From Terriglobia bacterium (GTDB lineage: Bacteria > Acidobacteriota > Terriglobia > Bryobacterales > Bryobacteraceae), in NCBI GenBank assembly GCA_021325175.1, contig JAJPHS010000139.1, positions 1 through 64,000 of the forward strand: a stretch of DNA of 64,000 nt. The letters are read 5' to 3'. The position numbers and the translations under genes are program-made. Within the stretch, counting starts at the first letter, position 1; each line of letters begins with the position of its first letter. The notes under the pieces were generated by a model. It did no database searches and was not told the DNA's origin. It worked only from the letters and a program-made list of their open reading frames with translations. Positions 22,389 to 26,029 of this stretch are shown here, piece after piece.

Positions 22389-23834
22389 TTACTCCAGCAG
22401 CGCTGCCGCTATTTTATCAATCCAGGCGCGAACTTCGGAAGAGGGCGCGGAAAAATTGTTGACCAGAATCGAAAACGCCAGCCGCCCGCACGATTTGCTC
22501 TCGGCATAACCCGACAAGGCCAGCGCGCGGCTCAACGATCCCGTCTTGGCGCGGATCGATCCCGCTTCCGCCAGGCAGCACAGGCGATGCTCGAGCGTTC
22601 CATCCTCGCCAGCCACCGGCAGCAGCGAAAACCATTGCTCGCGATACGGCCCTTGATTCAGATATGCCAAAAGACGCGTCACCAGCCGCGGCGTCACCAG
22701 CGCATTACGCGACAATCCGCTGCCGTCTTCCAGGCGCCAATCGTCCTTGGCCGCGCCGATCCCGGCGAGCATCGCGTCCATTTCTTGCAGGCCCGCTTCC
22801 CGCGTTCCCATGTGCCGCGCGACGCGGCCCGCCTCGCGAAGCATCAGCTCCGCGAAAAGATTCTGGCTGACTTTATCCATCACGCGCAGCAGATCGATCA
22901 GAGGCGGCGAGCTGCGCGAGGCGACTACGCGGCCCCGCGGAGCAATGTAATCGTCGGCCGCGCTGCGATGCCACGCCACCGGTCCGCCGGCGATCGCCAC
23001 GCCCCGCCGCGTCAGCGCATCATAGAGCGCGCAGGCCGCGTACAATGCCGGATCGTCGATCGCCACCGTTTCCACGATCGGGGCGTGGCCCAGCGGAATG
23101 CTTCCCCACAGCAGCAACTGCCGCGATCCGGCCTGCCGCGACAGGCGAATCTTCGCTTCCGCGCCGCGCGCGACCGTGGCGACGCGCTGATCGATGGCAT
23201 AGTATTCAAGCGGCGGATCGAGCGAAATGCCGGCCGCGTCGCCCGCGCCCTCGCCCGGCTGCAGCGTGATCGACAGCGCGTTTTCATTCACGCTCAGCGC
23301 GCTCACCGGCGCGCCGTAATCGCGCAGCGCGTCGTCCTGAGTCCAGCTCGGCGCATAGGGCGACCAGGGATAGAGCCGGTCATCGCCGGCCACGTCGCCG
23401 CGGATTCGCCTCACCCCGCTGGCCACGATCTGATCCGCCAAATCCTCGATCGGCGCCAGACCGGGGCCCATCGGCGCGTTCTTCTGATACGGAAACGCTC
23501 GCCCGGAAAGCGAGGGATCGCCGCTGCCCACCAGCACCAGGTTTCCCGCGTCATCGAGCAACACCTGCGTCGTGAATTTTCGGTCCGGCCCGAGCCGCAG
23601 CAGAGCCAGCGCGCTGGTGAACAGCTTCATATTCGACGCCGGCAGAAACAGCCGGTCCTGGTTCAGGTGGTAAATCGTTTTCCCGGTGGCAAGTTCGACG
23701 ACGTGAATTCCCGCGAATGCCTTGAGCGGAGCCGCGCCGGCCGCGATATCGATGCGGTGCTCCAGGTCCACGGCCATCGATCGCGGGGCGAGCAATAACA
23801 GAATCGAGCACAGCGCCAGCCGCGCCAACCACAT
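22389..23834 (-). CDS. dacB: D-alanyl-D-alanine carboxypeptidase/endopeptidase (PBP4 family)
   Basis: FLPASNMKLFTSALALLRLG (SxxK), EDGSGLSRNALVTPRLV (SxN), RAKTGSLSRALALSGYAE (KTG). Confidence 0.93.
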   Translation of the reverse strand: MWLARLALCSILLLLAPRSMAVDLEHRIDIAAGAAPLKAFAGIHVVELATGKTIYHLNQDRLFLPASNMKLFTSALALLRLGPDRKFTTQVLLDDAGNLVLVGSGDPSLSGRAFPYQKNAPMGPGLAPIEDLADQIVASGVRRIRGDVAGDDRLYPWSPYAPSWTQDDALRDYGAPVSALSVNENALSITLQPGEGAGDAAGISLDPPLEYYAIDQRVATVARGAEAKIRLSRQAGSRQLLLWGSIPLGHAPIVETVAIDDPALYAACALYDALTRRGVAIAGGPVAWHRSAADDYIAPRGRVVASRSSPPLIDLLRVMDKVSQNLFAELMLREAGRVARHMGTREAGLQEMDAMLAGIGAAKDDWRLEDGSGLSRNALVTPRLVTRLLAYLNQGPYREQWFSLLPVAGEDGTLEHRLCCLAEAGSIRAKTGSLSRALALSGYAESKSCGRLAFSILVNNFSAPSSEVRAWIDKIAAALLE

Positions 23835-23865: not shown

Positions 23866-23982
23866 TCAGCGGCCCAGCATCCCTTCCACGGCCGCGATCA
23901 CCGTGCATACCGCCACGTGCGCAAGAAACCCGTAGTGAATCCAGTGACGCGTGAAACGGAGAACCAGAAAAAAGTCCTGCAT
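23866..23982 (-). CDS. possible small hydrophobic protein (38 aa)
   Basis: MQDFFLVLRFTRHWIHYGFLAHVAVCTVIAAVEGMLGR; one hydrophobic segment; no clear Shine-Dalgarno. Confidence 0.25.
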   Translation of the reverse strand: MQDFFLVLRFTRHWIHYGFLAHVAVCTVIAAVEGMLGR

Positions 23983-24152
23983 AGCGGCGGGGGTTATTTT
24001 CGCCCCTCGCCTGCCTATGGGACCAATAGCCCAGGACTCATCTCCCAGGGAGAAAAGTTCCAGTACGGCTTAAGGCGCCACCTTGCGTTTCGTACTAAGT
24101 TGTTTGGGTCGGTAGGATTTCATCGTAAAAAAGAGATATGCTAGAGCAGACG

Positions 24153-24211
24153 AAAAAACCGCATCGGAATTGGCGCTGCGAGGTGACGGTGCTGCCTTTT
24201 CCGATGCGGTT
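24153..24211 (-). terminator. intrinsic-terminator-like hairpin reading on the minus strand
   Basis: Perfect 13-bp arms AACCGCATCGGAA/TTCCGATGCGGTT (24157-24169 and 24199-24211), then TTTTTT on minus strand. Confidence 0.65.
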
Positions 24212-24277
24212 CGCCCAAGACGGGCTTGGATCCCGGCCTCTAACTTCGACAACTGCTGGTCAAGGCCCGCGTCCTAT

Positions 24278-24373
24278 TTAGTTCCTCAACCAGGCTGCTT
24301 CCGGCAGATTCCCGCGATCCATGAAGTCCGTATAAAACTCGAAGAATTCCGTTTTTAAAAACCGTGCCGCCAT
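24278..24373 (-). CDS. possible 31-aa small protein
   Basis: Reverse complement MAARFLKTEFFEFYTDFMDRGNLPEAAWLRN*, upstream of the terminator-like hairpin; too short for the ORF track. Confidence 0.3.
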   Translation of the reverse strand: MAARFLKTEFFEFYTDFMDRGNLPEAAWLRN

Positions 24374-24387
24374 AAAAAGTTGTTTTC

Positions 24388-24522
24388 AAAAAACCCCTCT
24401 GTTGCAACTTGCCCAAACGAAAGAAGAGGACATTACTCGAACCTCAAAAACCACCGGCTCCCGCAAGCACGCTAGAAACTGGCCGCCCGCTTCTCTCATT
24501 CGTGCCCGTTGCAAACAGAGGG
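24388..24522 (-). ncRNA. candidate structured RNA or leader, long closing stem followed by T6
   Basis: CCCTCTGTTTGCAAC pairs with GTTGCAACAGAGGG (one bulge) across about 128 nt; TTTTTT follows on the minus strand. Confidence 0.4.
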
Positions 24523-24682
24523 CAGGTTTCGAAAAGAGTTACTCCATCAATTCGTGATGAATAGAGCACGGCCCTTGCCACGGATCGCGCCGTTCGTTTT
24601 CAAAGCTTTCCGCCGGATCGGGGCTTGCGTGCGCGGGGATGTGGCCCCGCCCGGTGTGTCGCTGTGACACAATATCGGGCAG

Positions 24683-26029
24683 GTGGGCGCGCGCTTGCTG
24701 GTTGTGCTGCTGACAGCTTGGCTGCTGCTTTCGACGGCCGGCGCCGCTTTTGCCCAGACCGCCGGGGACGAAGATTTCCACGTCTACACCGATTCTCCCC
24801 GCCTTCTTCTCACCCGCGCGCGGCTTCGTCTGCTCCAGCGCGAGCGCGAGCGCCAGTCGATGCGCTGGGAGCAGTTCGATGCCCTCATCCGCGGCGGCGC
24901 GCCGATGCCCGAACCCGGCTTCGCCCTTGCCCTTTACTCTCAGATCGCGCGCGATCCCAGCGCGGCGAAAAAAGCGATCGATTGGGCGCTGGGCGACACA
25001 ACGGATCTGCGCCAGCTCGCCCTCGTGTTCGATTGGTGTGGTCCGATGCTGAATCCTGCGCAGGCCGAACGGCTGGCGGCAAAAATCCAGCAGGCGCTCG
25101 CGGTGCCCTCCAGCGACGTTCGCCGCCAGAGCGCGCGCGTGCTGGCCGCCATCGCCCTGGCCGATCGTCTGCCCGATCAGGGCGAAGCATTGTTGAAGCC
25201 CCTGGTTCTTGAATGGTGGCGTTCCGGCATCGCGCCGCGGCTTGAAAAAGGTCAACCCGCGATCCCCCGCGAGCAGATCTATTTTCTCTATGAAATGATG
25301 CACGCCCTCCGCGACAATCTGAAAATCGATTTGCGCGACTCGGCGCCGGAGTATTTTAAGGATTTGCCCACGGACCATCTCGCCGGCCATTATCCGGCAT
25401 CGCTGCAAACTCCGGAAAACGAATACCGCGTGCCGGTTTATGCCCGCGACGGGAATCCGGACGTGACCGACGCCATATTGTCGCGCGCGGCCGAGCTGGC
25501 GATGGTCGCCTATGACGGCAACGCGCTCGATAGCCAGTATTTACAAGGCTGGCTGATGCAGGACCGGTTCCTGATGCGCGGCGCGATGGGCATCGTCTAC
25601 GAATTCCTGTGGGCGAATCCCTATCAGCCCGGCCTCAGCTATTTTCAACTGCCGTTGATTTTCCACAACTCGATTACGGGCCACGTCTTCGCGCGAACCA
25701 GCTGGGATGAAAACGCCACTTGGCTGGGATATTTCGACGGGCACTTGCAGCTTTTCCGCGATGGCCAGATCGAATCGCTGCGGGCCGGCGCGAAGATCAA
25801 GCCGCTGCAAGCCGCGGGCGCGCTGGTTTTAAGCGCCGATCGTCCCGAAGCGCTGAAATTCCGGGCCAATGCGGAAGCCGTTTTCGTGCTCAATCTGACG
25901 CCGCGCACCTCCTACGACGTGGAAGTGGACGACGAAGAAATGTGGGACGCCGAGACGGATTCCGGCGGAACCCTGCTGTTGTCCTTTCCGGAAAACACCG
26001 ACACCGGCGTGAGAATTCACCGGCATTGA
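24683..26029 (+). CDS. secreted hypothetical protein, weak heparinase II/III-like C-terminal signature
   Basis: Signal peptide LLVVLLTAWLLLSTAGAAFAQ; HVFARTSWDENATWLGYFDGHLQLF. Confidence 0.65.
   Translation: MGARLLVVLLTAWLLLSTAGAAFAQTAGDEDFHVYTDSPRLLLTRARLRLLQRERERQSMRWEQFDALIRGGAPMPEPGFALALYSQIARDPSAAKKAIDWALGDTTDLRQLALVFDWCGPMLNPAQAERLAAKIQQALAVPSSDVRRQSARVLAAIALADRLPDQGEALLKPLVLEWWRSGIAPRLEKGQPAIPREQIYFLYEMMHALRDNLKIDLRDSAPEYFKDLPTDHLAGHYPASLQTPENEYRVPVYARDGNPDVTDAILSRAAELAMVAYDGNALDSQYLQGWLMQDRFLMRGAMGIVYEFLWANPYQPGLSYFQLPLIFHNSITGHVFARTSWDENATWLGYFDGHLQLFRDGQIESLRAGAKIKPLQAAGALVLSADRPEALKFRANAEAVFVLNLTPRTSYDVEVDDEEMWDAETDSGGTLLLSFPENTDTGVRIHRH

Follow-up and report, generated by a model that had tools for sequence, protein, structure and literature searches.

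Two tandem structured RNAs with a predicted sigma-54 promoter in Bryobacteraceae

The window analysed here, a stretch of 64,000 nt of bacterial DNA, contains a gap of 848 nt between a carboxypeptidase gene and a plus-strand gene at 24683, which raises the question of what is encoded there. A preliminary description saw in this gap one minus-strand unit, either a leader or attenuator RNA with a micro-peptide or an orphan structured RNA. We found that the locus is two conserved structured RNAs in tandem, RNA1 then RNA2, and that a sigma-54 promoter element and a palindrome, both missed by that description, lie just outside the unit that it outlined (Table 1). The RNA pair is real and family-wide and, at the sequence level, its sigma-54 promoter and activator-like site are well supported. 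It is probable that the two are non-coding RNAs that share one sigma-54 promoter and act in trans as regulators.

Table 1. Features of the locus and its surroundings, with window coordinates
Feature	Position	Strand	Basis or remark
D-Ala-D-Ala carboxypeptidase gene	22389-23834	-	PF02113
38-aa ORF MQDFFLVLRFTRHWIHYGFLAHVAVCTVIAAVEGMLGR	23866-23982	-	20 genus members, core RFTRHWIHYG
RNA2: closing stem UGGAUC/GGAUCC, hairpin with GGACGCGG, small hairpin GCCC/GGGC, terminator	about 24153-24325	-	R2 model, two-clade fold, z = -4.95
RNA2 intrinsic terminator CCGCAUCGGAA...UUCCGAUGCGG-U6	24153-24209	-	stem kept through base changes
RNA2 main hairpin CUGGUUGAGG...GGACGCGG...CCUUGACCAG	24256-24293	-	core in 90/98 loci; covariation
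31-codon ORF of the preliminary description	24278-24373	-	no counterpart in any relative; not considered a gene
RNA1: 5' tail GAAUUGAUGgAGU, rod-like hairpin, terminator U6	24388-24553	-	covariance model R1, covariation, z = -4.0
RNA1 hairpin proper, closed by CCCUCUG/CAGAGGG	24395-24522	-	closing stem all but invariant, 33 blastn loci
RNA1 apical hairpin CG-u-GCUU-[GCGG]-GAGC-CG	24454-24471	-	GUGCUUGCGG nearly invariant; paired in 97% of cells
Sigma-54 -24/-12 promoter element TGGCAAGGGCCGTGCT (GG-N10-GC)	24565-24580	-	fixed distance in 100/103 loci
Palindrome TGTGTCACAGCGACACA, candidate sigma-54 activator (bEBP) site	24655-24671	-	0-2 mismatches in 101/101 loci
Divergent neighbour gene: secreted protein, predicted heparinase II-like (polysaccharide lyase) fold	24683-26029	+	AF2 pLDDT 91.7; Foldseek

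RNA1 and RNA2 are conserved structured RNAs

Comparison of the gap with 60 related genomes by blastn gave three conserved blocks: a 128-nt segment with its flanks, the region of the last stem, and a block near the carboxypeptidase gene. The structured elements noted earlier were all recovered on the minus strand. CCCTCTG (24522-24516) pairs with CAGAGGG (24401-24395) to close a segment of 128 nt end to end, which is followed by T6 (24393-24388); further along lie the 10-bp helix CTGGTTGAGG (24293-24284)/CCTTGACCAG (24265-24256) and the perfect stem CCGCATCGGAA (24209-24199)/TTCCGATGCGG (24169-24159) with its own T6 (24158-24153). The region stands beyond chance both in its folding, with none of 200 shuffles as good for either RNA (z scores in Table 1), and in its conservation, with covariation, in more than 100 genomes.

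RNA1 is a long rod of about 165 nt whose lower stem doubles as a terminator. Among 33 aligned homologues, picked by blastn without use of the tip or closing motif, the closing stem and the tip GUGCUUGCGG are near-invariant and the intervening arms are variable. A later scan of public genomes selected loci by that motif, the loci being among the matches listed, and the invariance of the motif in these loci is therefore by construction. Unconstrained folds of single sequences repeatedly gave the long rod, with the small tip hairpin in most genera. In an alignment of 68 distinct sequences that leans to the covariance model, 89.6% of cells were paired, a share that fell to 38-48% when the partners were slid by 1-3 columns, and 30 of 43 pairs were changed on both sides, a count that none of 500 shuffles reached. 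A plain MAFFT alignment analyzed with RNAalifold still gave 10 pairs, and both partners had changed in 5 of these.

The tip has another predicted form in genus g1, where GCGAGnGGCUA can pair with UAGCGUGCUUGC (for example in loci L015, L017 and L021) to give a branched structure, which in this genus beats the rod by as much as 9 kcal/mol and in other genera is mostly much worse. By predicted energy the branched tip often matches the stability of the rod in g1, which counts against the explanation that we favor; a switch and drift are both possible.

For RNA2, covariance model R2 matches the window at 24237-24316. The core GGACGCGG, or a one-base variant, lies 3' of RNA1 in 90 of the 98 loci whose sequence extends far enough, in most cases 60-160 nt from RNA1, and a few of these matches, such as that in L114, are probably due to chance. 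The RNA2 rows were picked by the core, making its invariance a selection effect, which the covariation of the stem is not: both partners have changed in 11 of the 12 pairs of the hairpin, with a covariation score of 0.518 compared with 0.268 in shuffles (0 of 500 shuffles as high). Folds of the whole RNA2 in two clades contain the closing stem, the main hairpin, the small hairpin and a covarying terminator, the stem of which is base-changed yet paired in relatives, for example as CCGCACCGGAU and CCGUAUCGGAA.

The two RNAs are linked. Genome-wide, 61 of the 63 R2 matches sit downstream of an R1 match on the same strand, at most about 260 nt away; the model did not detect RNA2 in about half of the RNA1-bearing genomes, though the pattern sees the core in most loci, as given above. 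Two RNA1-RNA2 units occur in one genome (G505:C78 and G505:C10), and two further genomes (G553:C463 and G489:C21) each have a further weak R2 match with no RNA1 reported beside it. We wondered whether RNA1 and RNA2 are separate genes, with their own promoters and functions, that merely lie next to each other, a reading that would replace only the step of co-transcription. Each RNA has its own terminator, and several members of the genus have retained RNA1 while their RNA2 is missing or strongly diverged, as would suit separate genes; however, no conserved promoter-like block was found between the U-tract of RNA1 and RNA2, the two RNAs stay side by side in almost every genome, and both members are duplicated in G505. 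We regard separate genes as doubtful, and we infer co-transcription by read-through because no conserved promoter was seen between the RNAs.

A model search of 150 genomes from the order recovered RNA1 in 119, at about one copy per genome; the carriers are almost all of family f1, with one of two genomes in f2 and none in f3. Among 396 genomes sampled across the phylum, matches to RNA1 occurred only in the genus of the window and none lay outside the order, in a search whose strict filters could have passed over distant relatives. The public loci that the model confirmed, among the matches listed, have record titles that nearly all read Bryobacterales, Bryobacteraceae, Solibacter or Acidobacteria. 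A cultured relative, strain F-183, has the unit on AP025252.1. High-scoring RNA1 was also seen on MAG contigs titled Bordetella parapertussis, Arcobacter sp. and Planctomycetota (L060, L078 and L101), titles that look wrong. The RNA pair, with its promoter-like elements, appears to be present in nearly every sampled member of one family of soil Acidobacteria, the Bryobacteraceae.

The region had earlier been described as matching no 6S, SRP, RNase P, tmRNA or riboswitch consensus. When it was searched against Rfam 15, no family was found at gathering score or at E up to 1-5, with one chance-level match to a miRNA. RNA1 has the rod shape, the single copy and the length of about 165 nt that a second 6S RNA, binding RNA polymerase, might have. 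This identity is extremely unlikely, since cmscan gave no match to 6S RNA (RF00013) in the region even at E 5, RNA1 is without the conserved central bubble and carries a sigma-54 promoter element, and the genome has a 6S RNA on another contig (G000:C26:5916-6114) that scores 49.3 bits against a cut-off of 46.4. CsrA-type titration by GGA in the RNA2 loop was also considered and was dropped because GGAC becomes GAAC in some loci. Of the readings first offered, that of an orphan structured RNA stands: the locus is conserved and covaries, has no counterpart in Rfam and carries a promoter-like element and terminators of its own.

Promoter element and upstream palindrome

Alignment of the sequences upstream of RNA1 revealed TGGC-N8-TGCT, with GG-N10-GC, at one constant distance from RNA1. 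This -24/-12 element was present in 100 of 103 loci, as compared with 1-9% at eleven shifted control anchors, and a scan for sigma-70 promoters found none. A start placed 12 nt after the C of the -12 element is predicted at 24554/24553, on the conserved GAATTGATG, and if this expected start holds, the conserved GAAUUGAUGAAGU would be the 5' end of RNA1; the predicted minus-strand transcript would run from GAAUUGAUG to the two U-tracts. RpoN and Hfq are both encoded in this genome.

Further upstream, about 95-105 bp from the -12 element, the palindrome TGTGTC-N5-GACACA was found with 0-2 mismatches in 101 of 101 loci tested, 72 of them perfect, as against at least 4 mismatches in all but 3 cases among control windows. 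In almost every locus the spacing to the -12 element falls at 94-97 or 103-107 bp, at the near edge of the 100-150 bp given for activator sites in a review (PMC7057263). The two clusters of distances are 10 bp apart, but the helical-phase statistic stays level between 9.5 and 11.5 and does not tell periods apart. This genome has a single perfect copy of the palindrome. A wider regulon marked by the palindrome was rejected, the matches obtained with 3 mismatches allowed being about as many as those of a reversed control pattern. In three loci (L015, L020 and L023), extra TTGTGTCACA half-sites or copies lie beside the palindrome, as if the enhancer had been duplicated.

The unit has, as sequence features, several marks of a sigma-54-dependent sRNA, with a predicted -24/-12 promoter and a candidate upstream site at about 100 bp, and it is stand-alone, structured and closed by an intrinsic terminator. 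This kind of RNA is known. The family is new to Rfam and apparently undescribed, with the Solibacter-1 motif considered by its published description; for Bryobacter and Solibacter, our search of the literature on RNAs returned only the motif survey of 2010, with almost no RNA work on Bryobacteraceae found.

Neighboring genes and small open reading frames

The palindrome and the region around it could instead be the operator of the divergent gene, with the hairpins serving only to end transcription. In 97 loci that gene lies next to RNA1 in divergent orientation, and its predicted start region overlaps with the palindrome. Its protein had no match in Pfam, in NCBIfam or, by single sequence, in the PDB; a weak match to a heparinase II profile was found, and the AF2 model had heparinase II (3e7j) as its best Foldseek match (E 1.3e-7), the predicted fold resembling heparinase II and also related polysaccharide lyases. 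An orthologue is present in 16 of the 21 genomes in which RNA1 was not found, and the gene was also seen in f3 genomes without RNA1. Neither RNA1 nor the palindrome was found near the orthologues in those RNA1-less genomes (six of family f3, genus g248 and others), of which at least three loci are cut by contig ends, so that RNA1 may there be merely unassembled. The palindrome thus goes with RNA1 and not with the gene, because the same gene without RNA1 has no palindrome. In addition, the sigma-54 element points at RNA1 rather than at the gene, and mere terminators would have no need of a conserved promoter, 5' tail and invariant tip. We consider an operator of the heparinase-like gene very unlikely. 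Pairing of the RNA1 5' tail or tip with the start of the neighbor gene was no better than in shuffles.

On the other side of the pair, the genes downstream vary and include those for an NMN transporter, astacin, HDOD, RecO, a lipase and a peptidase S9. These genes bear no relation to one another across genera, so the unit is not a leader, and the leader or attenuator RNA first proposed, with or without the 31-codon peptide, becomes highly improbable. The terminator-like stems in series would suit a leader, as would the followers on the same strand, namely a conserved 38-aa ORF in genus g1 and dacB in this window. However, we saw the 38-aa ORF in this genus only, whereas the RNAs are family-wide, and several members of the genus that retain this ORF yielded no RNA2. 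The differences among copies of the 38-aa ORF are concentrated at third codon positions, and its predicted product, with no Pfam or NCBIfam match, looks like a small membrane protein.

The 31-codon ORF fared differently from the structured elements of the preliminary description. No counterpart was found in 32 relatives, including one that is 88% identical over the gap, which argues against the proposed micro-peptide; the ORF overlaps the 5' side of RNA2 by accident, and its lack of conservation also speaks against a peptide-coding leader.

Proposed regulation and related systems

In the regulation that we favor, a putative sigma-54 activator (bEBP) answering a signal would bind the palindrome about 100 bp upstream and loop to RNA polymerase-sigma-54 at the -24/-12 element, starting RNA1 at 24553, as predicted from the sequence. 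RNA1 would end at its own closing stem and U6, and read-through would extend the transcript across RNA2 as far as the second terminator. The tips of RNA1 and RNA2 have GCGG in common, and the RNAs would regulate in trans, most likely through these conserved GCGG tips, which may bind a protein or a complementary mRNA. A further elaboration, rather unlikely as it stands, is that one signal-controlled transcript gives two serial RNAs through a leaky terminator in the RNA1 stem, both offering their shared GCGG tip to a single RNA-binding protein, whereby the read-through ratio would set a two-stage response. We know of no described system with such a layout of a two-RNA sponge and a read-through ratio.

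Among known systems, Pxr of Myxococcus xanthus is reported to be likewise an intergenic sRNA with several stem-loops, a sigma-54 promoter and an upstream enhancer site, and its syntenic place is kept across a group of genera (PMC5568312). By the description on which this likeness rests, Pxr is 108 nt long and stands alone downstream of the response-regulator gene nla19, whereas the present unit has two RNAs and another neighbor gene and belongs to another phylum. GlmY and GlmZ of enterobacteria are also two structured sRNAs, and PMC6075780 describes how QseF, acting at upstream sites, activates glmY from a sigma-54 promoter; unlike RNA1 and RNA2, they are separate, mutually related genes that act on glmS through RapZ, and no Rfam match to such a family was found here. 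The Qrr sRNAs of Vibrio are reported to be sigma-54-dependent regulatory RNAs under bEBP control (PMC10162802), but had no Rfam sequence match in this region. The Solibacter-1 motif (Weinberg 2010; PMC2864571), known here by its description, is a candidate structured RNA from Solibacter usitatus, listed for that species only and without an Rfam number. Pxr and glmY resemble the unit in their control, a likeness by analogy with no evidence of common descent.

Taken together, the locus represents a family-wide and apparently undescribed pair of putative regulatory RNAs in soil Bryobacteraceae, for which searchable models, R1 and R2, result. The genomes that have the same neighbor gene without the RNA and the palindrome provide a natural control. 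The unit also points to a dedicated sigma-54 activator, and because the perfect site of this activator occurs once in the genome, a signaling route of signal, activator, RNA and targets becomes testable in these bacteria.
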